Assembly (NCBI RefSeq): GCF_004217185.1
Contig: NZ_SHKL01000001.1
Location: forward strand, 2,192,001-2,256,000
DNA: 64,000 nt
Source: Pseudonocardia sediminis
GTDB lineage: Bacteria; Actinomycetota; Actinomycetes; Mycobacteriales; Pseudonocardiaceae
Direction: 5' to 3'
Shown: one piece after another, positions 6,524 through 22,526 of the stretch
Layout of the letters: every line of letters begins with the position of its first letter
Position numbering within the stretch: position 1 is the first letter of the stretch
Notes under the pieces: generated by a model
Told to the model about the DNA's origin: nothing
The model's input: the letters and a program-made list of their open reading frames with translations, nothing else
The model's database searches: none
Position numbers and translations under genes: made by a program

Positions 6524-7510
6524 TCAGAGGTCCCGGTCGGGCCCGGCGGCGATCGTCGCGGCCGCGTCGAGCATCTGCGCCCCGACCGGTTGCAGGCCGA
6601 TCGCGGTGGCGACCAGGCCGGTCGCGACCCGCTCGGCCACACCCCACTCCCAGACCGCCACCGGGTCGCACCCGGTGGCGCGGGCGAGGTCGTGGGCCCG
6701 CCGGTGCGGGCCCTGCGCCATCAGTTCCACGGGGTCCTCGCGCATCAGCACCCCGAGGTCGTACTCGGGTTCGGCGAACAGCCCGTCCGGGTCGACGAGG
6801 ACGAACCCGCCGGTCCGGCCGGGGCCGGTCCCGTCGGCGGACACAGCGGTCCCGTCGGCGGAGGTCTCACCAGGGGCGAGGCGGCGCAGGGCGTTCCAGG
6901 CGTGCACGTCGCCGTGCACCAGGACGGCGCGTTCGTCGTCGTGCGCCGCGGCCCGGCGTCCGGCGCAGGTCAGGGCGTGTTCCACGGCCGCCTCCGGGCA
7001 GGGACGGTCGAGCTCGTCCCAGATCCGCGTGACCGAGCCGGCGAGCCACCGCCCCTTCTCCGCGCCGGTCATCAGCCCGGCGTCCGGGGCCGGGGTCCAG
7101 AACCCGGCGGCCAGCGCGGTGAGGATCTCCAGCCTCCGCCCGAAGCCGACCCCGAGCGCGGCCAGCGACGGGCCGAGACGCTCCATCAGCAGCGCGCCCC
7201 GCGCGTCGTCGGAGCGCAGCAGCGTGACGCACGTCCCGCCGGAGGTCCGCCGGAGCACGGCGATCTCGTCGGCGACCGGGATGCCGTCGGAGCGCGGGAC
7301 CAGCAGCTTGAGCACGGACGGGCGACCGTGGTCGTCGAGGGCCTCGCAGACGACCGCGTCGGTGCCGTCGGGGTAGACGGTGCCGACGGTGACCGCCCAG
7401 TCGGCCTCCAGCCCGGCGACAAGGTCGGGGAGGTCCCGGAGCCAGTCCCGGGCGCCGAGAAGGGCGAGCTTCTCCCGGACGACGGCGGGGACCTGCGCGA
7501 TGTCGAACAC
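6524..7510 (-). CDS. APH(6)/hydroxyurea-type small-molecule kinase
   Basis: This 328-residue protein looks like the aminoglycoside 6-phosphotransferase/hydroxyurea resistance kinase family. Lys68 sits in an ATP-binding strand (Val-Leu-Lys-Leu-Leu). The catalytic loop His-Gly-Asp-Val-His-x2-Asn gives H199, D201 and N206, and Asp-Pro-Asp-Gly at 240-243 is the metal-binding equivalent of DFG. Family members phosphorylate streptomycin or related compounds, but chromosomal homologues often have unknown substrates, so resistance is not established. Between the catalytic loop and the DPDG motif there is a low-complexity stretch with a duplicated Ser-Ala-Asp-Gly-Thr. It is convergent with dnaE, 70 nt away. 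Confidence 0.8.
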   Translation of the reverse strand: MFDIAQVPAVVREKLALLGARDWLRDLPDLVAGLEADWAVTVGTVYPDGTDAVVCEALDDHGRPSVLKLLVPRSDGIPVADEIAVLRRTSGGTCVTLLRSDDARGALLMERLGPSLAALGVGFGRRLEILTALAAGFWTPAPDAGLMTGAEKGRWLAGSVTRIWDELDRPCPEAAVEHALTCAGRRAAAHDDERAVLVHGDVHAWNALRRLAPGETSADGTAVSADGTGPGRTGGFVLVDPDGLFAEPEYDLGVLMREDPVELMAQGPHRRAHDLARATGCDPVAVWEWGVAERVATGLVATAIGLQPVGAQMLDAAATIAAGPDRDL

Positions 7511-7551
7511 GACCTCAGCCGACCACGGGGTGCAACCGGGTTACGCGTGCG

Positions 7552-8427
7552 TCAGCCGGCCCGGCCGACGAGGTCGTGCCAGCACGTCCGGGCGGGTTCG
7601 TCCCAGCGTGCGTGCAGCGCGGCGAACAGTGTCGCGGCCCGGGTGCCGGCCCAGTGGTCGGGCAGCAGGGCCGAGGGCAGCTCCGGGTCCAGGAACGGGA
7701 ACCGGCGCCAGGCGTGCACCAGCAGCACCTGCCGGGTCAGCACGTCCGCCGGCGGCGGGGCGTCGGCGTAGGGGGTGAACCCGGCGAGGAACTCCTCGTA
7801 GGCGTGCTCGACGCGGTCGAGGTCCCAGGCCTGCGCGACGACGTCGGAGGGCCGCCCGATCGCGCCGAAGTGCCCGACGAACGAGCTGGTCACCCCGCCG
7901 AGGTCGAGGTCGTCGAGGACCCGGGTCACCTCGGTCTCCTTCGCCGGGTCGGGGGAGACCCATACCCCGGGGGCGGGCGAGCCGAGCCCGGCCCAGGCCA
8001 GGCGAGTGCGCAGCCGGTGCCGCAGCTGGCGGCGCGACTCCGGCACGCTGGCCAGCAGCACCAGCCAGCGGCCGTCCCACTCCGGGGCCGGGGTGCCGAA
8101 ACCGTAGATCCGCGCCGCGCCCTCGGAGAGCAGCCGCCGTCCGCGGGCGGTCAGCGACCAGCGCACGCGGCGTCCCGACCGGTCGGAGTCGAGCAGCCCC
8201 TCGGCGGCGGTCCGGGCCAGCGCCTGGCGGGCCGACTTCGGCTCGACCCCGAGGTCGCCGAGCACGTCGAGCAGCACCTGGGTCCAGACGGGCTCGCGCT
8301 CGGGCAGGACGAACTCGCCGAGCACGGTCAGCAGCAGCGAGCGGGCACTGGTCTGCCCGAGCTCGCGGCGCCGCAGCGCGGGGGTGTCCGGGTCCGCGCG
8401 GGTCGCCGGGGTGGTGTGCGGGGGCAT
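7552..8427 (-). CDS. PaaX-family transcriptional regulator
   Basis: This 291-residue protein has the PaaX layout. An N-terminal winged helix (about residues 15-85, with Ser-Ala-Arg-Gln-Ala-Leu-Ala-Arg as recognition helix) is followed by a central linker and a C-terminal PaaX-type domain with Trp-Asp-Gly-Arg-Trp near 110. PaaX of Escherichia coli represses phenylacetate catabolism using phenylacetyl-CoA as effector; no paa genes are visible here, so the target is unknown. The frame is open further upstream to 8787, but the ATG at 8427 is preferred. It precedes the conserved domain by a short tail and has TACGCT nine bases upstream. It is divergent from bioA. Confidence 0.8.
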   Translation of the reverse strand: MPPHTTPATRADPDTPALRRRELGQTSARSLLLTVLGEFVLPEREPVWTQVLLDVLGDLGVEPKSARQALARTAAEGLLDSDRSGRRVRWSLTARGRRLLSEGAARIYGFGTPAPEWDGRWLVLLASVPESRRQLRHRLRTRLAWAGLGSPAPGVWVSPDPAKETEVTRVLDDLDLGGVTSSFVGHFGAIGRPSDVVAQAWDLDRVEHAYEEFLAGFTPYADAPPPADVLTRQVLLVHAWRRFPFLDPELPSALLPDHWAGTRAATLFAALHARWDEPARTCWHDLVGRAG

Positions 8428-8436
8428 GGCCGGATC

Positions 8437-8442
8437 AGCGTA
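8437..8442 (-). promoter_or_regulatory. Probable -10 element of the paaX-like gene
   Basis: Read on the minus strand this is TACGCT, nine bases before the ATG at 8427. The distance fits transcription starting at or very near the start codon. Confidence 0.4.
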
Positions 8443-8540
8443 GAGGCTTGCGGCCCGTGCGCGCCCCGGCGCGCCCGGGGCGGGGACGTGCGCGTCCCTC
8501 CGATCGGTCCCTCTCGGTGCACCACCTCCGCGGTGACCAC

Positions 8541-8546
8541 TACTGT
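8541..8546 (+). promoter_or_regulatory. Probable -10 element of bioA
   Basis: TACTGT lies eight bases before the GTG start of bioA at 8555. No Shine-Dalgarno sequence is present in between, which suggests a leaderless message. Confidence 0.4.
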
Positions 8547-8554
8547 GAGTACCC

Positions 8555-9907
8555 GTGGACACCCGGGATCCCTCCGAGCGGTCCGGTCCGGCCCGGGTTC
8601 CTGCGGTGCAGGCGGAATCGCCGGCCGGATCGGCGTCGGACCGCACCCGCGAGGTGCTGGCCGTCGACCGCGACCACGTCTGGCACCCGTACGCGCCGAT
8701 GCCCGGGACCTCGCGCCCGATCGTCGTCGAGTCCGCGTCCGGGGTCCGGCTGCGCACCGCGGACGGCCGCGAGCTCGTCGACGGCATGTCGTCGTGGTGG
8801 TCGGCAATCCACGGCTACCAGCACCCGGTCCTCGACGCGGCCGTGCGCGGCCAGCTCGGCCGGATGAGCCACGTGATGTTCGGCGGGCTGACCCACGGGC
8901 CGGCGGTGGACCTCGCGCAGCTGCTGGTCGAGGTCACCCCCGAGGAGCTGCAGCACGTCTTCCTGGCCGACTCCGGGTCGGTGTCGGTCGAGGTCGCGAT
9001 CAAGATGTGCCTGCAGTACTGGCGCTCGCGCGGGCGGCCGGGCAAGCACCGGCTGATGACCTGGCGCGGCGGCTACCACGGGGACACGTTCGGTGCGATG
9101 AGCGTCTGCGACCCCGACGGCGGCATGCACTCGCTGTGGAGCGACGTGCTGCCGCAGCAGGTCTTCGCCGACCCGCCGCCGAACTGCTTCGAGCACGACT
9201 ACGTCGCGCACCTGGCCGAGCTCGTGGAGACCCACGCCGACGAGCTGGCCGCGGTGATCGTCGAACCGGTCGTGCAGGGCGCCGGGGGCATGCGCTTCCA
9301 CGACCCGCGCTACCTGCACGTGCTCCGCGAGCTCTGCCACGCCCACGACGTGCTGCTGGTCTTCGACGAGATCGCCACCGGCTTCGGCCGCACCGGCGAG
9401 CTGTTCGGCGCCGACCACGCCGGGATCAGCCCGGACGTGATGTGCGTGGGCAAGGCGCTGACCGGCGGCTACCTGACGATGGCCGCGACGCTGTGCAGCT
9501 CCCGGGTGGCCGCGGGCATCACCGACGGGCAGGCGGGCGTCCTCATGCACGGGCCCACGTTCATGGGCAACCCGATGGCCGCGGCCGTGGCGCACTCGTC
9601 GGTGTCGCTGCTGCTCGAACGGGACTGGCAGCGCGAGGTGAAGCAGATCGCGGCCGCCCTGCGGGCGGGGCTGACCCCGGCCCGTGCGCTGCCCGGCGTG
9701 CGCGAGGTCCGGATCCTCGGGGCGATCGGCGTGATCGAGCTCGACCACGAGGTGGACATCGCCGCGGCGACGTCGGCGGCCGTCGTGGCGGGGGTGTGGC
9801 TGCGCCCGTTCCGCAACCTCGTCTACGCGATGCCGCCGTTCGTGTGCACGCGCGAGGACGTCGCGATGATCACCGCGGGTATGCGGGCGGCTGCCCTCGC
9901 CGGGTGA
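8555..9907 (+). CDS. bioA: Adenosylmethionine-8-amino-7-oxononanoate aminotransferase
   Basis: BioA uses S-adenosylmethionine as amino donor to make 7,8-diaminopelargonate in biotin synthesis, with PLP as cofactor in the cytoplasm. The 450-residue sequence shows the BioA hallmark Trp-His-Pro-Tyr near residue 47. It also has [10 protein letters not shown] near 80-90, the PLP aspartate in Val-Phe-Asp-Glu-Ile, and the Schiff-base lysine K300 in Val-Gly-Lys-Ala-Leu-Thr-Gly-Gly. It is slightly longer than typical because of an N-terminal extension of about 30 polar residues. In M. tuberculosis bioA is directly followed by bioF; here bioF lies 7.6 kb further on. Confidence 0.95.
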
Positions 9908-10124
9908 TCCGGGGCGGTCCCGCGTGACCCTCTGCACTCGGACGTGTGATCGGCAACGTGACGTCGATCACGTTTCCGGTGGGTGAACGACGCTGACCGG
10001 CGGTTACCGCGCAGGCGGGCCGAACGATGAGAAGCGCTCTCATCCTTATCGGGTTCCGTGAAGATCAACGACCGCACTGTCGCGTTCGACCCCCCACGAC
10101 CGTCCGTCACGGAGGACACCCCCA
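9908..10124 (+). promoter_or_regulatory. SulP upstream region with two inverted repeats
   Basis: No gene is seen. GTGATC at 9946-9951 and GATCAC at 9966-9971 form an inverted repeat with a 14-base spacer. The word TGAGAAGCGCTCTCA at 10028-10042 is a near-palindrome built on AGCGCT, like LacI-type operators but with one extra A in the left arm. GGAGGA at 10111-10116 is the ribosome binding site for the next gene. Which protein binds is not known. Confidence 0.4.
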
Positions 10125-12488
10125 GTGCATCCCTCGAGAAAATCGATTACCGGGACCTCGGCGCAGACCCCCGCGTCGACCCGGACCCACCAGGACGAGC
10201 ACTCTCCGACCGAGTCGGGCCGGGGTGAGCACTCGCCGCCCCCGACCGGCCTGCGCTCCTGGTTCCCGCACGCCCGGGCGGACCTGTCCGCCTCGCTCGT
10301 CGTCTTCCTCGTCGCCGTCCCGCTCTCGCTCGGCATCGCCGTCGCCTCGGGCGCCCCCATCCTCGCCGGGCTCGTCGCCGCCGTCGTCGGCGCGATCGTC
10401 GCCGGCCTCCTCGGCGGATCCCCGCTGCAGGTCAGCGGCCCGGCCGCCGGTCTCACGGTCGTGGTCGCCGAGATGATCAACCGGTTCGGCTGGCAGGTCA
10501 CCTGCCTGATCACCGCCGGTGCGGGTCTCATCCAGATCGTCTTCGGCCTGACCCGGCTGGCCCGCTTCGCCCAGGCGATCCCGCCCTCGGTCGTACACGG
10601 GATGCTCGGCGGCATCGGTCTCACGATCGCCCTCGCCCAGCTCAACGTCGTCTTCGGTGGCCAGTCGCAGACCGCCGCCCTGGACAGCCTCACCGCCCTG
10701 CCCGGCAGCATCGCCGGTCTGGCCTGGCCCACCCTGCTGGTCGGCGCGCTGGTGATCGCCGTGATGCTCACGTGGCCGAAGCTGCCCGCCCGCGCCCGGG
10801 TCGTCCCCGGTGCGCTGGTCGCCGTGGTGCTCGCCACCGTCGTCGCGCTCGCGTTCCCCGAGGTCCCCCGGGTCGAGCTCGGCGGCTCGCTGCTCGACGC
10901 CATCGCGCTCCCGGTCCTGCCGGAGGGCAACTGGGCCGGCGTGATCGGCGGCATGCTGACCATCGCGCTGATCGCCAGCGTGGAGAGCCTGCTCTCGGCC
11001 GTGGCCGTGGAGCGGATGAAGCCGGGTACCCGTACCGACGCCGACCGCGAGCTCCTCGGCCAGGGCGCGGCCAACACCGTGTCCGGCCTGGTCGGCGGGC
11101 TGCCGATCACCGGTGTGATCGTGCGCAGCTCGGCCAACGTCCGGGCCGGTGCCCGGACGCGGGCCTCGGCCGTCCTGCACGGGGTGTGGATCGCGGTGTT
11201 CGCGATCCTGCTCGTCGGGGTCGTCGAGATGATCCCGATGGCGGGCCTGGCCGGTCTGCTGGTCGTGGTCGGCCTGCAGCTGGTGAAGCCGGCCGACATC
11301 CGCACCGCGCGCAACCACGGCGAGCTGGCGATCTACGTCGTCACCGTCCTCGGTGTCCTGATGCTGAACCTGCTCGAGGGCGTCGCCCTGGGCCTGGTCC
11401 TGGCCGGGGTGCTGCTGCTGGTCAAGGCCGTCCGCTCGCGCCCGCACTTCGACGGCGCCGACGGCGAGAACGCCGACGGCCCGATGGTGCTGCGCGTCGA
11501 GGGCTCGCTGAGCTTCCTCGCGGTGCCGCGCCTGTCGCGCCAGCTCGGGGAGATCCCGGCCGGTCGCGACGTGCGGATCGACCTGGTCACCGACTACCTC
11601 GACCACGCCGCCTACGACCACCTGCAGGCCTGGACCGAGCGTCACCGCTCGACCGGCGCGACCGTGGAGGTCCTCGAGCCCGAGACCACCACCCGCACCA
11701 CGAGCAACAGCCTCGACGGCACGCCGCGGTTCGCGTCGTGGTCGCACTGGCAGGCCACCGGCGCCGAGGGCCGCACGGCCGAGTCGCCGATGCTGGCCGG
11801 TCTCGCCGCCTACCACGAGCGGACCGCCGAGGAGATCCGTCCGACGATGTCGGAGCTGGCCTCGGGCCAGTCGCCCTCGGCGATGATGGTCACCTGCGCC
11901 GACTCCCGGGTGATGCCGCACATGATCACCCACAGCGGGCCCGGCGACGTGTTCACGGTGCAGAACGTCGGGAACCTGGCCGGCGGCCAGGGGACGATGG
12001 CCGCCGTCGAGTACGCCACCGGAGTCCTCGGCGTGCCGCTGATCGCGGTCTGCGGGCACTCCGGCTGCGGGGCCATGAACGGCCTGAGCCAGGGCGTGGC
12101 AGGCCAGGAGGGGGAACTGGGCACGTGGCTGCTGGACGCGCGGCCGGTGCTGCGCGCCTGGGAGCAGGGTCACCCGGTGGGTGCCGCCGCGGCCGCGGAC
12201 GGGTTCTCCCCGGTCGACCAGCTGGCGATGGTGAACGTGGCGATGCAGCTGGAGATGCTGCGCGCCAAGGACACCGGGGCCGAGCTGATGGGCCTGTTCT
12301 ACGACATCGCGACGGCACGGGTGCTCGTCCTCGACGGCGAGACCCTGCGTTTCGTGCCGCCGCGCGTCGAGGACGCGACGTCGTCGGAGGTCGCGACCCT
12401 GGGCCGGCTCGCGGCCGGGCACGGGCACGGCGCCGCCGGGGAGCAGCCCGCGGCGGCCCGGGAACATGTCGCGCCCACGGTGCGTTGA
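10125..12488 (+). CDS. SulP anion transporter fused to beta-carbonic anhydrase
   Basis: This 787-residue protein joins two activities. Residues about 40-440 form a SulP-type membrane domain of ten or more helices. A STAS-like segment follows (about 460-540, with Leu-Arg-Val-Glu-Gly-Ser-Leu). From about 560 to the end there is a beta-class carbonic anhydrase with its zinc and catalytic set intact: C591, D593 and R595 in Cys-Ala-Asp-Ser-Arg, and H645 and C648 in His-Ser-Gly-Cys-Gly. Such fusions are known in bacteria and are thought to couple bicarbonate transport to CO2 hydration. The GTG start has GGAGGA eight bases upstream. Thioredoxin follows after seven bases and is probably co-transcribed. 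Confidence 0.92.
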   Translation: MHPSRKSITGTSAQTPASTRTHQDEHSPTESGRGEHSPPPTGLRSWFPHARADLSASLVVFLVAVPLSLGIAVASGAPILAGLVAAVVGAIVAGLLGGSPLQVSGPAAGLTVVVAEMINRFGWQVTCLITAGAGLIQIVFGLTRLARFAQAIPPSVVHGMLGGIGLTIALAQLNVVFGGQSQTAALDSLTALPGSIAGLAWPTLLVGALVIAVMLTWPKLPARARVVPGALVAVVLATVVALAFPEVPRVELGGSLLDAIALPVLPEGNWAGVIGGMLTIALIASVESLLSAVAVERMKPGTRTDADRELLGQGAANTVSGLVGGLPITGVIVRSSANVRAGARTRASAVLHGVWIAVFAILLVGVVEMIPMAGLAGLLVVVGLQLVKPADIRTARNHGELAIYVVTVLGVLMLNLLEGVALGLVLAGVLLLVKAVRSRPHFDGADGENADGPMVLRVEGSLSFLAVPRLSRQLGEIPAGRDVRIDLVTDYLDHAAYDHLQAWTERHRSTGATVEVLEPETTTRTTSNSLDGTPRFASWSHWQATGAEGRTAESPMLAGLAAYHERTAEEIRPTMSELASGQSPSAMMVTCADSRVMPHMITHSGPGDVFTVQNVGNLAGGQGTMAAVEYATGVLGVPLIAVCGHSGCGAMNGLSQGVAGQEGELGTWLLDARPVLRAWEQGHPVGAAAAADGFSPVDQLAMVNVAMQLEMLRAKDTGAELMGLFYDIATARVLVLDGETLRFVPPRVEDATSSEVATLGRLAAGHGHGAAGEQPAAAREHVAPTVR

Positions 12489-12495
12489 GGGACCC

Positions 12496-12891
12496 ATGGC
12501 CACCGTGGAACTGACCACCGACAACTTCAACGACGTCGTCGGCGCTCCCGGCGCGACCGTCCTCGTGGACTTCTGGGCGTCCTGGTGCGGCCCCTGCAAG
12601 CAGTTCGCACCGGTGTACGACGCGGCGTCGGAGAAGCACTCCGACGTGACCTTCGCGAAGGTCGACACCGAGGCGCAGCAGGAGCTGGCCGGAGCGTTCG
12701 GGATCTCCTCGATCCCGACCGTGATGGCGGTCCGGGACGGCGTCGTCGTCTACTCGCAGCCCGGCGCACTCCCGGCCGAGGCCCTGGAGGACCTGATCGG
12801 CCAGGTGAAGGCCGTCGACATGGACGAGGTCAAGGCCGCCGTCGCCGAGCAGGAGCGCCAGCAGGAGGCCGGGGAGAACCCGACCGCCTGA
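12496..12891 (+). CDS. Thioredoxin
   Basis: This small redox protein reduces disulfides in the cytoplasm. The active site Trp-Cys-Gly-Pro-Cys gives C31 and C34, and the cis-proline motif Ile-Pro-Thr follows near 75. A C-terminal extension of about 25 residues after the fold is polar and probably disordered, making the protein 131 residues against about 105-110 for a minimal thioredoxin. The ribosome binding site GAGGGA overlaps the stop codon of the SulP-carbonic anhydrase gene, so translation is likely coupled. A redox role for the transporter or carbonic anhydrase cysteines is possible but is only inferred from this neighbourhood. Confidence 0.93.
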   Translation: MATVELTTDNFNDVVGAPGATVLVDFWASWCGPCKQFAPVYDAASEKHSDVTFAKVDTEAQQELAGAFGISSIPTVMAVRDGVVVYSQPGALPAEALEDLIGQVKAVDMDEVKAAVAEQERQQEAGENPTA

Positions 12892-12906
12892 TCGCAGCAC
12901 GACCCA

Positions 12907-12943
12907 CGGCCCCGCCTCCCCCGCATCGGGGGTGGCGGGGCCG
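12907..12943 (+). terminator. Strong hairpin after thioredoxin
   Basis: CGGCCCCGCC at 12907-12916 pairs with GGCGGGGCCG at 12934-12943, and an inner CCCCCG/CGGGGG stem lies inside it, separated by one T:T mismatch, around a three-base loop. No clear T-run follows. It should end the SulP-thioredoxin message before the synthetase gene. Confidence 0.7.
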
Positions 12944-13215
12944 TCGTCGTGTCCGGGTACATCGTTCGCCGTTGATCTCCCCCTGCTTTCACAGCACAAT
13001 GCCGCGCGAAATTCGCTAGTCCTTTCGAGTGGTGTCCGTCATCCTTCGAAACGGAGGGCTTCCGAAGGACGAGAAAGCTTGCACGGCAATGCTGCCGATC
13101 GGGGTGGGGTGCACATGGACGCGGTGTCATATCGTGATTCGCGACGATCTTATTCGCTGATCGCCGCCTGGTCCCGTGCCGTCCGTGATCGGTATCACCA
13201 CACCCGTACCGCGCT
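12944..13215 (+). promoter_or_regulatory. Lower-GC region upstream of the Pls-like gene
   Basis: This stretch is visibly richer in A and T than the rest of the window. It has no gene that I can support. CCTTCG at 13043-13048 and CGAAGG at 13063-13068 form an inverted repeat. The composition and position fit a promoter and control region for the synthetase gene, and also fit recent acquisition. Confidence 0.4.
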
Positions 13216-16200
13216 GTGGCCGAACGGATCGGGCGGATGAGTGCGCCTCCCGTTCCGCGTCCGGAGATCGATCGGGACGTCGGTGCCGACACCGGGTCGG
13301 AAACGGAACGCGCGCTCGGCGCGGTGCTCGCCGAGATCCTCGATCTCGACCACGTCCCCGCCGACGCGCACTTCTTCGACGACCTGGGCGCCGACTCGAT
13401 GGTGCTGGCCCGGTTCTGTGCTCGCCTGCGCAAGCGCGAGGACCTGCCGTCGCCGTCGATGCGCGACGTCTACGCCCATCCCACGGTGCGCGGGCTGGCC
13501 GGAGCCGTCGCCCCGGCTTTACCCGCCCCGGACGCCCCTCCTTCGGAGATCGATGGGCCCGCCCCGGACGGCCCTGCCCCGGAGGGGGCCGCCCCGGACG
13601 CGTCGCCGGTCCCGGATGCCGGCGGGCCGGAGCCCGCGGCGACGGTGCCCACCGCCGGGCGCGCCCGCTACGTGCTCTGCGGGGCCGCCCAGTTGCTGAT
13701 CTTTCTCGGGTACCTCTGCGGCGTCGCCGTGGTCACGACCCGGGTGTACGGGTGGGTCGCCGCCGGCGCCGGCATGCTCGACCTCTACCTGCGTGCCGTC
13801 GCCGCCGGAGGGGTAGGGCTGCTCGCGCTGTGCCTGCTGCCGATCGTGGCGAAGTGGGTGCTGATCGGACGGTGGAAAGCCCGCAGCTTCCCGGTGTGGG
13901 GCCTGACATACCTGCGGTTCTGGCTGGTCAAGACGCTCGTACGGGCCAACCCGCTGGTGCTGGTGGCCGGTGGTTCGGCGCTGCAGGTGCTCTACCTGCG
14001 TGCTCTCGGTGCGCGGATCGGTCCCGGGGTCACCCTGCTCACCCGCAGCGTCCCGGTGGCCACCGACCTGCTGACGATCGGCGCCGGCACCGTCATCCGT
14101 AAGAGCGTCCTGCTCAGCGGCTACCGGGCGCACGTCGGCCGGATCGAGATCGGCCCGGTCACGCTCGGGCGGGACGTGTTCATCGGCGAGACCACCGTCG
14201 TCGACATCGGGACGTCGATGGGCGACGGCGCCGCGCTCGGGCACTCCTCGTCGCTGCACACCGGTCAGGACGTGCCGGCCGGGCAGACGTGGCACGGCTC
14301 CCCGGCCCGCCGTGCCGACGTCGACTACCGGACGGTGGCTCCGGTGCGGTGCGGATCGCTGCGGCGCGGCCTCTACGCCGCCGGGCAGATGCTGTGGGCG
14401 CTGCTGTTCTTCGTCCCGCTGCTGACCGGCGGCCTGGACCTGCTGCTGGCGGACCTGCCGCGGACCGGCATCCCGCTGTTCAACGCCGCCCCGGACCCGA
14501 CCGGCTGGGTGTTCTGGGCCGAGGCGGCGGCGACCACGTCCGGCCTGCTGTTCGGCGGCCTGCTGGTCGGGCTCGTCGTCGTCAAGGTCGTCCCGGCGAT
14601 GCTGAATCGGCTGATCACACCGGAAAAGATCTATCCGCTCTACGGATTCCATTTCTCGGTCCACCGGTGGGTCGTCCGGCTGACGAACGTCAAGTTCTTC
14701 ACCTTTCTCTTCGGTGACAGTTCATACATCGTCGGCTACCTGAAGTACATCGGTTACGATCTCGGCCGGGTCGAGCAGACAGGGTCGAATTTCGGCACCG
14801 CCGTCGTCCACGAGACACCGTTCCTGGCGTCGGTCGGAAGCGGCACGATGGTCGCCGACGGTCTGTCGTTGATGAATGCGGAGTACTCGAGTTCGTCCTT
14901 TCGCCTGCGCCGTACGTCCATCGGCGGGGCGAACTTCCTGGGCAACCGCATCACCTATCCGGCGGGCGGCCGGACGGGGGACGACTGCCTGCTGGCGACG
15001 AAAGTCATGATCCCGGTGGACGGGCCCGTGCGGTCCGGTGTCGGGCTGCTCGGATCGCCCCCGTTCGAGATCCCCCGCACGGTCGCCCGCGACGCCGACG
15101 TGGACACCCCGTCCGGGGACGGCCTCGCCCGCCGCCTGGCCGCGAAGAACCGGCACAACCGGCGCACGATCGCCCTGGCCCTGGGCGTCCGGTGGCTGCA
15201 CCTGTTCGGGGTGGTGATGCTGGCGATGGCCGCGGCCGACCTCTTCCGCTCCTTCGGCGTCCTGGCCGTCGCGGCGCAGATGCTCGCCCTGGTGCTGTTC
15301 AGCCTCGTGTTCTTCGTGCTGGTGGAGCGCGCCTCGACCGGCTTCCGGCCGCTGCAGCCGCTGTTCTGCTCGATCTACGACGAGCGGTTCTGGCGGCACG
15401 AACGCTTCTGGAAGCTGGTGCTGCAGGGACTGGACCGGACGCTGGTCGGGACGCCGTTCAAGAACGTGCTCTCCCGTGCGCTCGGCACCCGGGTCGGTGC
15501 CCGGGTGTTCGACGACGGCTGCGCGGTGCCCGAGCGCACGCTGGTCTCGATCGGTGACGGCGCCACCCTGAACGCGGGCACGGTCATCCAGTGCCACTCC
15601 CAGGAGGACGGAGCCTTCAAGTCCGACCGCACCGTCCTCGGCGACGACGTCACGCTGGGGGTCGGGGCGTTCGTGCACTACGGCGTCACGATCGGCGACG
15701 GCGTGCTCCTCGAGGCCGACTCGTTCCTGATGAAGGGCGAGGAGATCCCGGCCGGCGCGCACTGGGCGGGGAACCCGGCCCAGGAGCACACCGCGGAGCC
15801 GGTCGCGGCGACGACCACCGCCGCCGCCACGCTCACCGCCGCCGCCCTCACCGCCACCGCGGCCCCCGCCACGACCCTGCGACCGCCGCCGGTGCCCGTT
15901 CCGGTCCCGCCGTCCCCGCTCGTCCCGCGGCCCGTGCCCGTCCGCCCGCTCCGGCCGGGGCCCGCGGCGCCCGCCCTCCGGCCGGCTCCCGTGCGGGTGC
16001 CCCGGCCGAGCCCGTTCCCGCGGACCGCGACGGTCACCGACCCGCCGACGGCGCCGGTCCGGCGCGTCGGCGCGGCGTGGCCGGACCCCCGGACGACGCG
16101 GATGCCCGTCGTCTCGGTGCCGAGGGGCGACCCGGCGACGGCGCGACTGCCGGTCGTCACCCGGCCCGGGACGCTCCGCCCGGGCCCGCCCCGTCCCGAG

Positions 16201-16401
16201 CCCACCCGTCCCGAGCCCACCCGTCCCGAGCCCACCCGTCCCGAGCCCACGCATCACGGTCCCGACCGGCCGGACCGTCCCTGGCCACCGGTGCCCTACC
16301 CCCGGGCCGGTCGCCGGCACCCGGAGACGCCCACACCCACCACCACCGAGCCCTGCGGCGGCGACTGCTTCTGGCTCGCCGACGTCGAGGGGGAGCCATG
16401 A
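13216..16401 (+). CDS. Pls/PosA-type NRPS terminal module without adenylation domain
   Basis: This 1061-residue protein starts with a peptidyl-carrier domain (residues about 30-95) whose Asp-Asp-Leu-Gly-Ala-Asp-Ser-Met motif places the phosphopantetheine on S61. After a Pro/Ala linker come three membrane plus left-handed beta-helix modules, roughly at 150-380, 395-640 and 655-865. The first and third have clear hexapeptide repeats (Ile-Gly-Asp-Gly and similar). This is the C-terminal half of epsilon-polylysine synthetase-like enzymes, which make isopeptide-linked amino-acid chains at the membrane; the usual adenylation domain is missing. A Pro-rich tail of about 190 residues ends in Cys-Gly-Gly-Asp-Cys-Phe-Trp. 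An alternative ATG start lies at 13237. The next gene overlaps by ATGA. The product is unknown. Confidence 0.8.
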   Translation: MAERIGRMSAPPVPRPEIDRDVGADTGSETERALGAVLAEILDLDHVPADAHFFDDLGADSMVLARFCARLRKREDLPSPSMRDVYAHPTVRGLAGAVAPALPAPDAPPSEIDGPAPDGPAPEGAAPDASPVPDAGGPEPAATVPTAGRARYVLCGAAQLLIFLGYLCGVAVVTTRVYGWVAAGAGMLDLYLRAVAAGGVGLLALCLLPIVAKWVLIGRWKARSFPVWGLTYLRFWLVKTLVRANPLVLVAGGSALQVLYLRALGARIGPGVTLLTRSVPVATDLLTIGAGTVIRKSVLLSGYRAHVGRIEIGPVTLGRDVFIGETTVVDIGTSMGDGAALGHSSSLHTGQDVPAGQTWHGSPARRADVDYRTVAPVRCGSLRRGLYAAGQMLWALLFFVPLLTGGLDLLLADLPRTGIPLFNAAPDPTGWVFWAEAAATTSGLLFGGLLVGLVVVKVVPAMLNRLITPEKIYPLYGFHFSVHRWVVRLTNVKFFTFLFGDSSYIVGYLKYIGYDLGRVEQTGSNFGTAVVHETPFLASVGSGTMVADGLSLMNAEYSSSSFRLRRTSIGGANFLGNRITYPAGGRTGDDCLLATKVMIPVDGPVRSGVGLLGSPPFEIPRTVARDADVDTPSGDGLARRLAAKNRHNRRTIALALGVRWLHLFGVVMLAMAAADLFRSFGVLAVAAQMLALVLFSLVFFVLVERASTGFRPLQPLFCSIYDERFWRHERFWKLVLQGLDRTLVGTPFKNVLSRALGTRVGARVFDDGCAVPERTLVSIGDGATLNAGTVIQCHSQEDGAFKSDRTVLGDDVTLGVGAFVHYGVTIGDGVLLEADSFLMKGEEIPAGAHWAGNPAQEHTAEPVAATTTAAATLTAAALTATAAPATTLRPPPVPVPVPPSPLVPRPVPVRPLRPGPAAPALRPAPVRVPRPSPFPRTATVTDPPTAPVRRVGAAWPDPRTTRMPVVSVPRGDPATARLPVVTRPGTLRPGPPRPEPTRPEPTRPEPTRPEPTHHGPDRPDRPWPPVPYPRAGRRHPETPTPTTTEPCGGDCFWLADVEGEP
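16191..16250 (+). repeat. Tandem repeat, four perfect 15-bp units
   Basis: The unit CCGTCCCGAGCCCAC is present four times without mismatch inside the Pro-rich tail of the Pls-like gene. It encodes repeated Arg-Pro-Glu-Pro-Thr. Perfect identity at DNA level suggests recent expansion and possible length variation between strains. Confidence 0.95.
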
Positions 16402-17477
16402 CCACGGCGACCCCCGGGAACCGCGCACCACGCGACACCGAGGAGGCGCAAGTGCCTGTCATCACCGATCCCCAGGACTTCAACGAGGACTCCCTGTTCG
16501 TCGACCTGCAGCCGGTCCTCGGCCACCGCCTCGCCCTGAAGTGCGAGGGGTTCAACTTCGCCGGTTCGATCAAGCTCAAAGCCGCCACCGAGATGGTGGA
16601 GGCCGCCGAGCGGGAGGGGGTGCTGCGCCCGGGCTCGATCCTGGTCGAGTCCTCCTCGGGCAACCTCGGTGTCGCGCTGAGCATGCTCGCGGCGAACAAG
16701 GGCTACGGGTTCCTCTGCGTCACCGACCACCGCTGCAACCTCTCCACCCGCCGGATGATGGAGGCGCTGGGCAGCCGGGTGCACGTGGTGTCCGAGCCGA
16801 CCCCCGACGGCGGTCTGCTCGGTGCGCGGATCAGCTACGTGCGTGCGCTGTGCGCCTCCGACGACCGTTACGTCTGGCTCGACCAGTACGCCAACCACGG
16901 GAACCAGCGCGCCCACTACCGCCGGACGGCGCCGGTCGTCGCCGCGCAGTTCCCCGACCTCGACGTGCTGTTCGTCGGGGCCGGGACGACCGGCACGTTG
17001 ATGGGCTGCGCGCGATGGTTCCGCGACCAGGGCCACCCGGCGCGGATCGTGGCCGTCGACAGCGTGGGTTCGGTGAGCTTCGGCGGTGAGCCGTCGCGGC
17101 GGATGATCCCGGGTCTGGGCAGCGGGTTCCGCCCGGCGATGCTCGACGAGTCCTACCTCGACGAGGTCGTCATGGTCGACGAGGCGGACACGGTGCGGTC
17201 GTGCCACCGGCTGGCGCGGCGCGGTTTCCTGTTCGGCGGGTCCACCGGGACCGTCGTCAGCGGGGCGCAGGCATGGCTCGACCACCACGACGACGGGAGC
17301 CTGACCGCCGTCGCGATCGCCCCCGACCTCGGTGAGCGCTACCTCGACACCGTCTACCAGACGAACTGGGTGGAGGCGCTCTACGGACCGGGGGTGCTCG
17401 GCCCGGACACGGTGCCCGGGGGCATCCCCGTCGTGGACATGGAGCTCACCGAGCGGCAGCGGGCGGACATGCTCTGA
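16398..17477 (+). CDS. SbnA-like PLP enzyme (cysteine synthase fold)
   Basis: This 359-residue protein belongs to the fold-type II PLP enzymes. K59 in Gly-Ser-Ile-Lys-Leu-Lys is the Schiff-base lysine, Ser-Ser-Ser-Gly-Asn-Leu-Gly near 92 is the substrate loop, and Gly-Ala-Gly-Thr-Thr-Gly-Thr near 195 binds the PLP phosphate. The loop and the Cys-Asn-Leu-Ser-Thr-Arg segment fit SbnA, which in siderophore synthesis condenses O-phosphoserine with glutamate on the way to 2,3-diaminopropionate, better than a true cysteine synthase. Its partner SbnB is not in the window. The ATG overlaps the previous stop (ATGA). A GTG at 16452 has a better ribosome site (GAGGAGG at 16439-16445) and may be the real start. 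Confidence 0.75.
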   Translation: MTTATPGNRAPRDTEEAQVPVITDPQDFNEDSLFVDLQPVLGHRLALKCEGFNFAGSIKLKAATEMVEAAEREGVLRPGSILVESSSGNLGVALSMLAANKGYGFLCVTDHRCNLSTRRMMEALGSRVHVVSEPTPDGGLLGARISYVRALCASDDRYVWLDQYANHGNQRAHYRRTAPVVAAQFPDLDVLFVGAGTTGTLMGCARWFRDQGHPARIVAVDSVGSVSFGGEPSRRMIPGLGSGFRPAMLDESYLDEVVMVDEADTVRSCHRLARRGFLFGGSTGTVVSGAQAWLDHHDDGSLTAVAIAPDLGERYLDTVYQTNWVEALYGPGVLGPDTVPGGIPVVDMELTERQRADML

Positions 17478-17532
17478 GGCTCCCCGCCGGGCCCGGCGGA
17501 GACGGCCGGCGGGGGTGACGGTCCGCGACGGA

Positions 17533-17538
17533 TAGGCT
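17533..17538 (+). promoter_or_regulatory. Probable -10 element of bioF
   Basis: TAGGCT lies eight bases before the ATG of bioF with no ribosome site between. It indicates that bioFDB-bsaP has its own promoter, separate from the inserted genes before it. Confidence 0.5.
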
Positions 17539-17546
17539 CCGCTGCG

Positions 17547-18731
17547 ATGACCCACCCCCTCGCCTGGCTCGACGACCGGGCTGACGCACGCCGCGAGGCC
17601 GGACTCCGCCGGGAGCTGCGGCCGCGCGCACCCGGCGCCGGACCGATCGACCTGGCCGGCAACGACTACCTGGGCCTGTCCACCGACCCGCGGGTGGTCG
17701 CGGGCGGCGTCGACGCGCTGCACGTCTGGGGCGCCGGGTCCACCGGTTCCCGGCTGGTCACCGGCAGCACCACGCTGCACGCCGACCTCGAGCGTGAGCT
17801 CGCCGCGTTCTGCGGGTTCGGCGACGCGCTGGTCTTCTCCTCCGGCTACACCGCGAACCTCGGTGCGGTGACGGCGCTGTCCGGGCCGGGGGCTCTCGTC
17901 GTCTCCGACGCGGCGGCGCACGCCTCCCTGGTCGACGCCTGCCGGCTGTCCCGGGCGCGGGTGCAGGTGGTGGCGCACAACGACCCCGCCGCCGTCGGCG
18001 CGGCGCTCGCGGCCCGGTCCGAGGAGCGCGCGCTGGTCGTCACCGACTCCGTCGGCAGCGCCGACGGCGACCTCGCCCCGCTGGCTGAGCTGCACCGGGT
18101 CTGCCGGGCGCACGGCGCGGTCCTGCTCGTCGACGAGGCGCACGGTCTCGGCGTCCGCGGGCCGGGCGGGCGCGGCCTGCTCGCCGAGCACGGCCTGGCC
18201 GGGGCGGACGACGTGCTGGCCACGGTCACGCTGTCCAAGGCGCTGGGCAGCCAGGGTGGTGCCGTGCTGGCCCCGCCCGGCGTCACCGCGCACCTGGTCG
18301 ACGCGGCGCGCTCGTTCATCTTCGACACCGGCCTGAACCCGGCCGCCACCGGCTCCGCGCTGGCCGCGCTGCGGGTGCTGGCCGCCGAGCCGTGGCGGGC
18401 CGCCGAGGTGCTGCGGGTGGCCGGCGTGCTCGCCGCCGCGACCGGGGTCCCGACGCCGGAGTCGGCTGTGGTGCCGGTCGTGCTCGGCGACGCGGGCGTC
18501 GCCGTCGCGGCCGCGGCACGCTGCCTGGAGGCGGGGCTGCGGGTCGGCTGCTTCCGGCCGCCGTCGGTGCCGGCGGGCACGTCGCGACTGCGCCTGACCG
18601 CCCGCGCCGACCTGCGCGACGACGAGCTGGAACGGGCCTGCGACGCCCTGCGCCGGGTGCTGTCCGAGGTGGGAGGACCCGCCGTGCCTCCCGCCGCTTC
18701 CGCTACACGGCCGAGAGGGACCGTCCGATGA
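17547..18731 (+). CDS. bioF: 8-amino-7-oxononanoate synthase
   Basis: BioF condenses pimeloyl-thioester with alanine to give 8-amino-7-oxononanoate, the first committed ring-building step of biotin. The 394-residue protein has Asn-Asp-Tyr-Leu-Gly-Leu near residue 39, Gly-Ser-Thr-Gly-Ser-Arg near 67 and the PLP aspartate motif Val-Asp-Glu-Ala-His-Gly near 198. The PLP lysine is K231 in Leu-Ser-Lys-Ala-Leu-Gly. It opens the bioF-bioD-bioB-bsaP operon; its stop overlaps the bioD start by ATGA. Confidence 0.95.
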
Positions 18732-19423
18732 GCCGCCTCCTGGTCGTGACCGGCACCGGAACCGGGGTCGGCAAGACCGTCGTCACCGCGGCGCTCGCCG
18801 CGCTGGCTCTGGCCTCGGGGGAGCGGGTCGCGGTGCTCAAGCCGGCCCAGACCGGCGTCGCGCCCGGCGAGCCCGGTGACGTCGACGAGATCGCTCGCCT
18901 CGCGCCCGGCGTGACCGTCCAGGAGCTGGCCCGTTACCCGGACCCGCTCGCGCCGGCCACCGCCGCGCGCCGTGCCGGGACGGCGACCGTCTCCCCGGCG
19001 GCCGTCGTCGACGCGGTCCGCGAGCTGTCGGCGACGCACGAGCTGGTGCTGATCGAGGGCGCGGGCGGTCTGCTGGTGCACTTCGACGAGGGCGGCGGCG
19101 GTCTCGCCGACGTCGCCGCGCAGCTCCCGGCGCCGGTCCTGGTGGTGGCCGCGGCCGGGCTGGGCACCCTGAACCACACGGCGCTCACCGTCGAGGCGCT
19201 GCGCGCCCGCGGCCTGCGCTCGCCCGGCGTCGTCATCGGGTCCTGGCCGGACACGCCCGACCTGGCCGCCCGCTGCAATCTCGAGGACCTGCCCGCGGCG
19301 ACGGGTGCCCGGCTGGTCGGCGCGCTGCCGGAGGGCGCCGGAGGGCTGGGTCCGGAGGCGTTCGACGATGTCGCACGTCACGGTCTGGGCCCCGCTCTCG
19401 GCGGGCGATGGCACACTCCCTGA
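18728..19423 (+). CDS. bioD: Dethiobiotin synthetase
   Basis: BioD closes the ureido ring of dethiobiotin from diaminopelargonate, CO2 and ATP. The 231-residue protein starts with the P-loop Gly-Thr-Gly-Thr-Gly-Val-Gly-Lys-Thr at residues 9-17. Lys-Pro-Ala-Gln-Thr-Gly near 38 and Glu-Gly-Ala-Gly-Gly-Leu near 111 are the substrate and magnesium motifs. The start is fixed by the ATGA overlap with bioF. A nearby carbonic anhydrase (10125-12488) could in principle raise its bicarbonate supply, but this is only a thought from proximity. Confidence 0.95.
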
Positions 19424-20433
19424 TCATGACGACCGCCCGGACCGACGTCCTCGCCCACGCCCGCGACCAGGTTCTCGAGAAGGGGATCGGCCTCGACCGG
19501 GAGCAGACGCGCGAGATCCTCGACCTGCCCGACGACGCCCTGGACGACCTGCTCGAGCTCGCGCACGAGGTGCGGATGCGCTGGTGCGGCCCGGACGTCG
19601 AGGTCGAGGGGATCATCTCGCTCAAGACCGGCGGCTGCCCCGAGGACTGCCACTTCTGCTCCCAGTCCGGCCTGTTCGCCTCGCCGGTGCGCTCGGCGTG
19701 GCTCGACATCCCGATGCTGGTCGAGGCCGCGAAGCAGACCGCGAAGACCGGGGCGACCGAGTTCTGCATCGTCGCGGCCGTCCGCGGGCCGGACGCGCGG
19801 CTGATGAGCCAGGTCAAGGCCGGCATCACCGCGATCCGCGACGCCGTCGACATCAACATTGCCTGCTCGCTCGGCATGCTGACCCAGGAGCAGGTCGACG
19901 AGCTGTCCGAGATGGGCGTGCACCGCTACAACCACAACCTCGAGACCGCCCGCTCGCATTTCCCGAACGTGGTCACCACCCACACCTGGGAGGAGCGCTG
20001 GGAGACGCTGTCGATGGTGCGCAAGGCCGGCATGGAGGTCTGCTGCGGCGGCATCGTCGGGATGGGGGAGTCGCTCGACCAGCGCGCCGAGTTCGCCTCC
20101 GAGCTGGCCTCGCTGGAGCCCGACGAGGTCCCGCTGAACTTCCTCAACCCGCGCCCCGGCACCCCGTTCGGCGACCTGGAGCCGCTGTCCGGCCCGGACG
20201 CGCTGCGCACGGTGGCCGCGTTCCGGCTGGCCCTGCCGCGCACGATCCTGCGCTTCGCCGGCGGCCGCGAGATCACCCTGGGCGACCTGGGTGCGCGCCG
20301 CGGCCTGCTCGGCGGCATCAACGCGGTGATCGTCGGCAACTACCTGACGACGCTGGGCCGCCCCGCCGAGTCCGACATCGACCTGCTCGGCGAGCTGCAG
20401 ATGCCGATCAAGGCCCTGAACGAGACCCTGTGA
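19408..20433 (+). CDS. bioB: Biotin synthase (radical SAM)
   Basis: BioB inserts sulfur into dethiobiotin using a radical-SAM [4Fe-4S] cluster and a second sacrificial cluster. The 341 residues contain Cys-Pro-Glu-Asp-Cys-His-Phe-Cys (C77, C81, C84), the Tyr-Asn-His-Asn-Leu-Glu-Thr segment near 173, and Cys-Cys-Gly-Gly-Ile near 213. The ATG at 19408 overlaps bioD by 16 bases. A second ATG at 19426, two bases after the bioD stop, gives a protein shorter by six residues and is equally possible. The sequence is very close to mycobacterial BioB, which depends on the small protein encoded next. Confidence 0.97.
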
Positions 20434-20666
20434 GCGAGACGGTGGGCGCGGTCGACGTGCCGACGGACTCCTCCCGCGAGTCCGGCGGCCCGTACTGCGA
20501 CCAGTGCGGGAGACCCGACGCCGATCCGGATCACCCCCGCTGCACCGCCCGCCGGGAGCTCGAACCCCCGAGGTTCTGCCCCGACTGCGCACGCAGGATG
20601 GTCGTGCAGGTCGACCCGGTCGGCTGGACCGCACGGTGCAGCCGCCACGGAGAACGCACGAGCTGA
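20430..20666 (+). CDS. bsaP: Biotin synthase auxiliary protein BsaP-like
   Basis: This 78-residue protein has six cysteines (C23, C26, C38, C50, C53, C70), arranged as two Cys-x2-Cys pairs with two single cysteines, and a conserved Pro-Pro-Arg-Phe-Cys-Pro segment. Its GTG start overlaps the bioB stop by four bases. A small cysteine-rich protein directly after bioB in actinobacteria corresponds to BsaP, reported in mycobacteria to be needed for biotin synthase turnover and to bind an iron-sulfur cluster. That role is known from mycobacteria and is inferred here from position, size and cysteine pattern. Confidence 0.8.
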
Positions 20667-20687
20667 GGCCCGCCACAGACAGGACGA

Positions 20688-20726
20688 GCGCGGCTTCCGT
20701 CGCGTCGTACGCAACGGAAGCCGCGC
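20688..20726. terminator. Bidirectional hairpin between bsaP and alcohol dehydrogenase
   Basis: GCGCGGCTTCCGT at 20688-20700 pairs perfectly with ACGGAAGCCGCGC at 20714-20726 around a 13-base loop. It lies between two convergent genes, so it can stop transcription from both sides. Confidence 0.75.
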
Positions 20727-20760
20727 CCGTTCGGCGGGGTCTCGCCCGCGGAAGCACCGA

Positions 20761-21795
20761 TCAGGGCGCGATGAGCACCTTGAGGGCCTCGCGGTCCATC
20801 ATCGCGCGGTAGCCGTCGGGGATCTCGTCCATGCCGATGGTGCGGTCGAAGACCTTGCCCGGCTGGATCTTCCCCTCGAGCACGTCGGGGAGGAGGTCCT
20901 CGATGTAGTTCCGGGCCGGGGCGACGCCACCGGCCATCTTGATGTTGCGCATGAACGTGCCGGCGTCGAGCGGGACGCTCTCGTACTGCGAGACGCCGAC
21001 CCGGCCGACGGTTCCGCCGTCGCGGGTGACGCCGATCGCAGTGTGCACGGCCTGCTCGTAGCCGACGCACTCCAGCGCCGCGTGCACGCCGTCGCCGCCG
21101 GTCAGCTCGCGGACCTTCTCGATCGCCTCGTCGCCGCGCTCGGCAACGACGTCGGTGGCCCCGAACTCGCGGCCGAGGTCGGTGCGGTCGGTGTGGCGGC
21201 CGAGCAGGATGACCCGCTCGGCGCCCAGGCGGGTCGCGGCGAGCACGGCGGACAGGCCGACCGCGCCGTCACCGACGACGGCGACCGTGTCGCCCTTGCT
21301 CACGCCCGCGCTGACCGCGGCGTGGTGCCCGGTCGGGAACACGTCGGACAGCGTCAGCAGCGAGGCGAGCAGCTTGTCGTCCGGCTCACCGGGCAGGCCG
21401 ACGAGCGTGCCGTCGGCGAACGGCACCCGGACGTACTCGCCCTGGCCGCCGTCGGTCTCGTCGGAGCCCCAGCCGCCGCCGTGACGGCAGGAGGTCTGCA
21501 GGCCCTGCCGGCAGAAGTCGCAGGTGTTGTCAGCCCAGACGAACGGGGCGACGACGAGGTCGCCCTTCTTCGTCGTCTCGACGCCCGAGCCGACCTCCTC
21601 GACGACGCCGAGGAACTCGTGGCCGATCCGGCTGCCAACGTCGGACTTCTCGGCGCTCTGGTAGGGCCACAGGTCGCTGCCGCAGATGCAGGAGCGCACG
21701 ACGCGCACGATGGCGTCGGTCGCGTCGCGGAGCTTGGGGTCGGGCACCTCGGAGACGCGGATGTCGCCGGGTCCGTGGATCAGGGTGGCGCGCAT
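20761..21795 (-). CDS. Zinc-dependent alcohol dehydrogenase (MDR family)
   Basis: This 344-residue protein is a medium-chain dehydrogenase. Cys-Gly-Ser-Asp near residue 38 and Gly-His-Glu-Phe near 59 supply catalytic zinc ligands. A structural-zinc lobe near 93-105 has Cys-x2-Cys-x7-Cys, one cysteine fewer than the classic four, as in some relatives of this subgroup. The cofactor motif Gly-Asp-Gly-Ala-Val-Gly-Leu lies near 173. The natural alcohol or aldehyde is unknown. GGAGGA lies 11 bases before the ATG. It stands alone on the minus strand between hairpin-bounded operons. Confidence 0.85.
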   Translation of the reverse strand: MRATLIHGPGDIRVSEVPDPKLRDATDAIVRVVRSCICGSDLWPYQSAEKSDVGSRIGHEFLGVVEEVGSGVETTKKGDLVVAPFVWADNTCDFCRQGLQTSCRHGGGWGSDETDGGQGEYVRVPFADGTLVGLPGEPDDKLLASLLTLSDVFPTGHHAAVSAGVSKGDTVAVVGDGAVGLSAVLAATRLGAERVILLGRHTDRTDLGREFGATDVVAERGDEAIEKVRELTGGDGVHAALECVGYEQAVHTAIGVTRDGGTVGRVGVSQYESVPLDAGTFMRNIKMAGGVAPARNYIEDLLPDVLEGKIQPGKVFDRTIGMDEIPDGYRAMMDREALKVLIAP

Positions 21796-21980
21796 GATGA
21801 GCGGTCCTCCGTAGTCGTTGAATACTCACGGACCGATTACCCGGCGCCACGTCGTCGTATGCGCACACGGTGGTGTGAGAGCGATCGCCCGCCGGGGTCA
21901 CGGGCCGCGTCTATGGGTTCGGGGTTCCCCGCGCGGGGCCGTCCCAACCGGCGCGGGGCACGACCGGCATGCTGTCCCCC

Positions 21981-22526
21981 ATGGCGAACTGGGGCGCGAT
22001 CCTGCGCAGGGCCGCGGACGTCGTGATGACGCTGCTGGACGACTCGAAGAAGAACGACCGTGCTCCCCAGGGGCAGGGACAGGGCCAGGGGAGGCCCTCG
22101 GGTGGTGCTCCGGCACCCGCCGGGCACTCCGGGGTGCGGACCGCACCGTCCGGTGACCGGGCCCGCGAGATCGTCTACGCACCCGACATGGACGGCAACG
22201 CCGACCCCGGCGAGATCGTCTGGACCTGGGTGCCGTTCGAGGAGGACGCCTCCCAGGGCAAGGACCGTCCGCTGCTGGTGGTCGGACGGGCCGGGCAGGA
22301 CCTGCTCGGCCTGATGCTGTCGAGCCAGGGCCACCGCGCCGACGACGCGAACTGGGTCGGCATCGGCTCCGGGTCGTGGGACCGCGAGGGACGGCCGTCC
22401 TACATCCGCCTGGACCGGGTGCTCGAGGTCGAGGAGAACGGCATCCGCCGCGAGGGCGCGATCCTGGCGCGGGACAAGTTCGACGTCGTCGCGGGTGAGC
22501 TGCGCGGACGGTACGGCTGGCGCTGA
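21981..22526 (+). CDS. PemK/MazF-like protein without visible antitoxin
   Basis: This 181-residue protein has a helical N-terminus, a Gln/Gly-rich low-complexity linker (residues about 30-55), and a C-terminal domain. That domain contains Gly-Glu-Ile-Val-Trp-Thr-Trp-Val-Pro-Phe and Asp-Arg-Pro-Leu-Leu-Val-Val-Gly, the usual PemK/MazF barrel pattern. MazF proteins cut RNA, but this one is longer and has no antitoxin gene next to it, so toxin function is doubtful. An alternative ATG lies 12 bases upstream at 21969. The ATG at 21981 is seven bases after CATGCT, which may be a weak -10. Confidence 0.65.
   Translation: MANWGAILRRAADVVMTLLDDSKKNDRAPQGQGQGQGRPSGGAPAPAGHSGVRTAPSGDRAREIVYAPDMDGNADPGEIVWTWVPFEEDASQGKDRPLLVVGRAGQDLLGLMLSSQGHRADDANWVGIGSGSWDREGRPSYIRLDRVLEVEENGIRREGAILARDKFDVVAGELRGRYGWR

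Follow-up and report, generated by a model that had tools for sequence, protein, structure and literature searches.

Cationic homopolyamino acid (CHPA) synthetases such as the epsilon-poly-L-lysine synthetase Pls and the delta-poly-L-ornithine synthetase PosA have a carrier domain and a C-terminal region of ~730 residues with six transmembrane (TM) helices, arranged as three pairs, and three soluble domains (PMC10522769), and the Pls-type enzymes in the accounts considered here load their own monomer (PMC10522769; PMC4668381). In a 64,000-nucleotide stretch of Pseudonocardia sediminis (contig NZ_SHKL01000001.1, positions 2,192,001 to 2,256,000; hereafter the window) we found a Pls-type gene without an adenylation (A) domain, overlapping a gene for an SbnA-like pyridoxal phosphate (PLP) enzyme. 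The reading we favor, with a probability of roughly 0.6, is that this pair is a scattered fragment of a system for diaminopropionate (Dap) isopeptides, with a polymer synthase that would be loaded in trans by a stand-alone protein with an A and a carrier domain (A-T).

Both halves of this reading have described counterparts. In Streptomyces albulus PD-1 (NjxA, NjxB and the poly(L-diaminopropionic acid) [PDAP] synthetase), Dap for a Pls-type synthetase comes from a cysteine-synthase-like and an ornithine-cyclodeaminase-like enzyme, with L-serine and L-ornithine as the substrates found (PMC4668381). The PDAP synthetase has its own A domain, whereas here the A function would lie on a separate protein; we liken the two by description, not by sequence. 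In the assembly lines for syringomycin, albicidin, ramoplanin and enduracidin, A domains that are absent or dead are complemented by stand-alone A-T proteins (PMC8949500). SyrB1/SyrE, Alb04 and the ramoplanin and enduracidin systems likewise use a separate A-T for a line without a usable A domain, but the acceptor in SyrB1/SyrE-type systems is a multimodular nonribosomal peptide synthetase (NRPS), whereas here it would be a membrane Pls-type synthase.

A Pls-type synthase gene without an adenylation domain

The window Pls (Table 1) starts at a GTG, with an in-frame ATG at 13237 as the alternative, and shares with Pls and PosA the carrier and C-terminal region but not the A domain. Its carrier serine, Ser61, is invariant among 24 aligned Pls, and 120 of the 122 positions conserved at ≥97% in 101 other Pls are kept. 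An AlphaFold2 model places helix pairs at residues 149-216, 381-464 and 634-707, with a beta-helix after each, and a low-confidence Pro-rich tail at 853-1061; since the mean pLDDT (predicted local distance difference test score) was 65.9, we trust the layout alone. On this moderate-confidence model and on hydropathy, the protein has the three TM helix pairs (six helices) and the three soluble domains of the family. The closest structural matches of the model were hexapeptide acyltransferases and gamma-carbonic anhydrases (weak scores), and by sequence the only solved structures matched (to E=0.01) were those of carrier domains and hexapeptide-repeat proteins.

The initial annotation had described this gene as a carrier plus three membrane/beta-helix modules without an A domain, and Pfam, TIGR02353 and the model all agree with it, down to the exact coordinates. 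It had also named an A domain missed through an upstream frameshift as the finding that would overturn it. No AMP-binding match to the window Pls appeared in Pfam up to E=1, and no N-terminal A domain was found with Pfam, an A-domain hidden Markov model (HMM) or tblastn. Indeed, when 11 A-containing Pls and the A-T of the same genome were searched by tblastn against window positions 7001-22000, the only significant matches were to the carrier (13231-13497), with the remaining matches at E 0.099 or weaker; thus a frameshifted A domain hidden upstream is excluded.

The C-tail of the window Pls carries a motif (ending EPCGGDCFWLADVEGEP) that has no counterpart in the other Pls tails listed, and the string CGG was found in none of those tails. 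A docking role for this tail is possible.

The downstream enzyme scores above the TIGR03945 (SbnA) cut-off (371 bits, cut-off 350), and far below those of the cysteine synthase families cysKM, cysK and cysM (195, 172 and 149 bits; cut-offs 344, 351 and 394), which rules out an ordinary CysK/CysM. Thus the second gene is, as first annotated, an SbnA-like enzyme joined to Pls by an ATGA overlap at exactly the annotated coordinates, and the grouping with cysteine synthases that would have undone that assignment did not occur. Aligned to the SbnA structure 5d84, its Lys59, Arg144 and Tyr164 correspond to Lys47, Arg132 and Tyr152 of the staphyloferrin B enzyme, so these residues are kept, but the Pls-associated subfamily differs from staphyloferrin B SbnA in having KLKA-type residues for KDRP after the PLP lysine and Gly for Ser185. 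The SbnB proteins of the own genome and of locus L078 likewise score above their family cut-off (TIGR03944).

Partner genes of A-less Pls and a proposed stand-alone loader

We surveyed 20 loci of the genus, 80 named loci and the loci of the window genome itself, leaving out of the statistics the near-duplicates L132, L152, L192, L236 and L243 and six contig-edge rows. Because the named loci were gathered by their likeness to the A-less protein of the window, their counts are not population frequencies; most of the genus loci were chosen because SbnA had been hit close to an A-less Pls, which biases any count including them towards SbnA. An A domain was called intact by its A3 motif, YTSG[ST][TS]GxPKG; the HMM was built from the same 11 intact proteins, which therefore match it at full length by construction, and the A10 pattern matched five of the 11.

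In actinobacteria and one Chloroflexota genome, A-less Pls often stands in a set with a stand-alone A-T, in some cases with a thioesterase (TE) domain, a TauD dioxygenase, SbnB and SbnA. Among named loci, all four partners lay in the stretch around 29 of 49 A-less Pls and 7 of 12 Pls with a degenerate or Asub-less A domain, whereas none of the ten intact-A Pls had any of them, SbnA included. For A-less Pls the individual counts were 34/49 for A-T and 33/49 for SbnA, with 10/49 having none of the four. Over all loci, the four occurred together at 40/70 A-less, 9/15 degenerate or Asub-less and 0/11 intact-A Pls, and an SbnA-family gene at 53/70 A-less versus 1/11 intact (L075). The Chloroflexota locus (L163) has all four partners; on short Rokubacteria contigs we saw A-T only (L172) or SbnB only (L191).

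Thus the coupling of A-less Pls with an SbnA-like enzyme, which the initial annotation had proposed, is real and widespread (33/49 versus 0/10), but its two narrower forms gave way. SbnA does not always follow A-less Pls: it is absent from the stretch at 16/49 named loci (17/70 overall), and where present it is often upstream or divergent. Nor did the idea of a two-gene system find support, since the usual unit has five genes and the own genome holds such a set at C1:5827119-5837187, in the order SbnA, Pls, then A-T, TauD and SbnB. The Pls of that set (1451 residues) contains two carrier domains, and its A domain is truncated and degenerate (A3 = YASVSGRPEG, no A10 match), whereas the A-T of the set (C1:5833351-5835192), adjoined by TauD and SbnB, has intact motifs (A3 YFTSGSTGRPKG, A10 NGKI and a carrier motif), as in NRPS lines complemented in trans by a stand-alone A-T. 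The stand-alone A domain, SbnB (two above cut-off) and a phosphopantetheinyl transferase (PPTase), which the initial annotation had suggested looking for, are all in this genome, the last as a PPTase-family gene; thus, with TauD, the activities missing from the window pair are encoded, though at a distance.

Two other regions of this genome are of interest in their own right. At L234 (G000:C1:5905000-5924999) a further SbnA-like gene (348 bits, slightly below cut-off) is paired with SbnB and adjoins an AMP-binding stretch with an internal TGA (5910283-5911326). At L235 (G000:C1:2609275-2612396) a Pls with a degenerate, Asub-less A domain lies beside a TauD-family gene with 49% identity to the TauD of the five-gene set; like pairs occur at L185 and L194.

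The initial annotation had allowed that loading might come from elsewhere, and the locus, Pseudonocardia and Streptomyces counts bear this out: a stand-alone A-T co-occurs with A-less Pls. Within the stretch, A-T accompanied 9/15 degenerate or Asub-less Pls versus 0/11 intact (all loci), and 41/61 non-intact versus 0/10 intact (named loci). Three tests of loading in trans were made, by locus, in Pseudonocardia and in Streptomyces, all after the pattern had been seen. By locus, we checked 17 of the 30 non-intact loci without a nearby A-T, and 8 of the 11 intact loci (L075, L167 and L179 were left out; by contig coordinates, genomes G069, G075 and G076 match the genus genomes G008, G052 and G025). 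All 15 genomes of the non-intact loci carry A-T elsewhere, compared to one of seven genomes for which only an intact-A Pls was fetched (p=9e-5); the control genomes number seven because L187 lies in G069, which also holds an A-less Pls. Twelve of the other 13 non-intact loci are in A-T-positive genomes, the remaining locus being L191.

In whole-genome counts, a short open frame (<1100 or <1150 residues) served as a proxy for A-less Pls. Among 62 Pseudonocardia genomes, a window-like SbnA was found in 39 and A-T in 39, both in 38 and neither in 22. At least 22 of these genomes have a short-frame Pls, and A-T was present in 22/22 among the matches listed (≥ ~545 bits; a contig-edge match of G035 left out). 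For Streptomyces we used an even draw of 101 genomes centered on G062, itself chosen for an A-less Pls, and took the draws for Pls and A-T as the same genomes. Of 34 short-frame Pls (812-1118 residues), 31 had A-T no more than 6 kb away, versus none of 42 long-frame Pls (≥1172 residues). By genome, A-T was encoded in 30/30 with a short-frame Pls, 2/25 with long-frame Pls only and 7/46 with neither (Fisher p=5e-18, not corrected for kinship).

The A pocket of this stand-alone A-T is nearly uniform: among 58 rows, near-duplicates included, 50 read DIWQSTADD, seven DIWQSTTDD and one DIWQCTADD, so that DIWQST(A/T)DD covers 57. Pocket positions were assigned after GrsA, and the pocket is presumably like that for diaminobutyrate (Dab) in the SyrE code. 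We did not find these strings in the open-licence literature. The two acidic pocket residues, together with the linked SbnA and SbnB genes, point to Dap as the A-T substrate, and Dap is probably the monomer of this putative trans-loaded variant of the cationic-polymer synthetases; a side amine can be bound by acidic residues at varying positions (PMC10522769). An N-terminal extension of ~215 residues is present at 59/59 A-T loci, near-duplicates included. The ramoplanin A-T also has an N-terminal extension, reported as needed (PMC8949500); we compare the two by their presence. The A-T of L071 has a TE domain and that of L078 has none; such a domain may serve release or carrier-to-carrier transfer.

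Taken together, these genes suggest a route in which L-Dap would be made by the SbnA-like enzyme with an SbnB encoded elsewhere and activated by the dedicated A-T on the carrier of that same protein. The tethered residue may then be modified by a TauD-type Fe/2-oxoglutarate enzyme, the aminoacyl group would be handed to Ser61 of the A-less Pls, and the three membrane/beta-helix modules would form the isopeptide bonds. The Dap substrate, the TauD step, the transfer between carriers and the polymer product are inferred.

A quick tree built from 102 Pls puts the window protein in a starred clade of 15 rows, Pseudonocardia proteins whose A domain is absent or degenerate. Next to it (SH-like approximate likelihood ratio test [SH-aLRT] 82) stands a clade whose members have full or reduced sets. 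On this tree the intact-A state changes three times and the A-T label 17 times. The degenerate A domains found next to A-T suggest decay of that domain once a separate loader had taken over, an order that is our inference. A test of whether A loss goes with A-T gain, made on phylogenetically independent contrasts, was dropped because these were too few.

Some loci depart from the common set. At L146, L151, L157, L183 and L189 a distant AMP-binding ligase (~26% identity) replaces the usual A-T after A-less Pls and TauD, and L073 has both. A cluster of HGSNAT-like membrane acyltransferases (Pfam on L074 and L130 only) is found at the A-less loci L074, L075, L121, L126, L130, L134, L162 and L186. 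A class-III aminotransferase cluster occurs at ten loci (L075 and nine others), nine of them with an intact-A Pls, and its L075 member, the sole one scanned, is of the diaminobutyrate type; this aminotransferase and the pocket DFECLSVVT suggest poly-diaminobutyrate.

The genomic site and competing explanations

The window pair sits in a biotin neighborhood of a 6.6 Mb genome, between two genes that we take from their sequences to be thioredoxin-like and bioF-like (Table 1). A gene fusing Sulfate_transp and Pro_CA domains (a sulfate-permease-family transporter/carbonic anhydrase; 10125-12488) overlaps the thioredoxin-like gene, and five of six relatives have it there too.

Table 1. Features of the window around the Pls-SbnA pair
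Feature	Position	Strand	Details
Thioredoxin-like gene, left border	12466..12891	+	in six relatives at most ~125 bases from bioF
A-less Pls/PosA-type synthase	13216..16401	+	carrier, three TM-hairpin/beta-helix modules, Pro-rich C-tail
Carrier (PP-binding) domain, phosphopantetheine Ser61	13315..13509	+	residues 34-98; Pfam PF00550, E=1e-9
TIGR02353 C-terminal synthase region	13678..15780	+	residues 155-855; 706 bits, cut-off 423
Pro-rich C-tail, low-confidence, probably disordered	15781..16398	+	206 residues; terminus EPCGGDCFWLADVEGEP
SbnA-family PLP enzyme, Pls-associated subfamily	16398..17477	+	359 residues; ATGA overlap with Pls; TIGR03945
bioF-like gene, right border of insertion	17547..18731	+	

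Several observations weigh against a working, trans-loaded synthase at this site. A-T, TauD and SbnB are not at the window locus (no SbnB was seen beside the pair), and the full set, which lies 3.6 Mb away on the contig, comes with an SbnA and a Pls of its own. In six of six relatives (G036, G057, G042, G041, G027 and G002) the thioredoxin-like gene lies next to bioF, without the pair between them; thus either the pair inserted in this lineage or all six relatives lost it. We found no close orthologue of the pair, the best Pls match being 61% (101 rows) and the best SbnA 76-77%. Ser185 of SbnA is linked to selection of O-phospho-L-serine (OPS) (PMC12414870), and its equivalent is Gly196 in the window enzyme and Gly in every Pls-associated row listed, so use of OPS is not assured. 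The association also has exceptions: 11 of 70 A-less loci have none of the four partners in the stretch; G035 has SbnA without an A-T match and G057 A-T without an SbnA match; and nine Streptomyces genomes have an A-T match without a short Pls, five of these at 44-57% identity and four, unexplained, at 65-71%. Two A-T-positive genomes have an intact-A locus (G069/L187 and G016/L075), though both also hold A-less Pls. Absences carry some uncertainty, since the genome searches scored only the top 12 to 58 candidates in each genome. Finally, intact A versus A-T gives one independent contrast on starred branches of the tree (three on all branches), and the p-values are thus not corrected for kinship.

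We considered that the pair might instead be a relic: a portion of the five-gene set, moved or gained by horizontal transfer, that no longer has its partners and is out of use. The empty site in the relatives, the three of five genes missing at the locus and the unusual 206-residue Pro-rich tail are consistent with this, as is the lack of a sigma-70-like promoter match in 12850-17600, a weak test for high-GC actinomycetes. But both frames are intact and tightly coupled, 120 of the 122 near-invariant positions of Pls are retained, as are the PLP lysine, the Arg and the Tyr, and the partners are available in trans in the same genome. We therefore consider a relic unlikely, though it is the main rival.

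It is less probable still that A-less Pls does not polymerize, but moves a single, perhaps modified, Dap from A-T to another acceptor for export. TauD and the TE domain on the A-T of L071 (the sole such protein scanned) would fit a line for tailoring and transfer, and the beta-helix modules resemble single-transfer acyltransferases; against this, the three synthase modules and near-invariant residues are kept as in intact-A Pls.

A self-contained two-gene system, its carrier loaded by other chemistry without any A domain, is very improbable: the four-base overlap, and SbnA with A-less Pls lacking the other three in the stretch at L076 (contig end), L079/L192, L176, L075 and L088 (~8 kb apart), would fit it, but the genomes of these loci (G031, G012, G016, G008 and G071) carry A-T elsewhere, as did every genome with a listed short-frame Pls in the Pseudonocardia and Streptomyces counts, and the common five-gene set excludes a two-gene unit as the rule.

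Proposed loading in trans and the Pls family

If the pair is indeed a piece of a trans-loaded Dap system, its split-loading logic is one that the available portions of PMC4668381, PMC10522769, PMC8949500 and PMC12414870 do not describe for the Pls family; nor did we find A-less Pls or the five-gene set in those portions or in titles and abstract starts of the open-licence literature. The CHPA similarity network was restricted to 1100-1800 residues (PMC10522769), which would leave out most A-less Pls. Short-frame Pls, present in 30 of the 101 Streptomyces genomes and tied to one stand-alone A-T, would be a large overlooked branch.

At least five short-frame Pls, among the matches listed, face two A-T in G016. 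A tentative extension, to which we give somewhat less than an even chance, is that one Dap-activating A-T serves several scattered A-less Pls, with TauD-modified Dap passed between carriers to give a family of modified isopeptide polymers. With a split loader, enzymatic tailoring of the tethered monomer could precede polymerization. Moreover, since loader and synthase could be supplied separately, the system would offer a clean handle on isopeptide bond formation by the three membrane modules.

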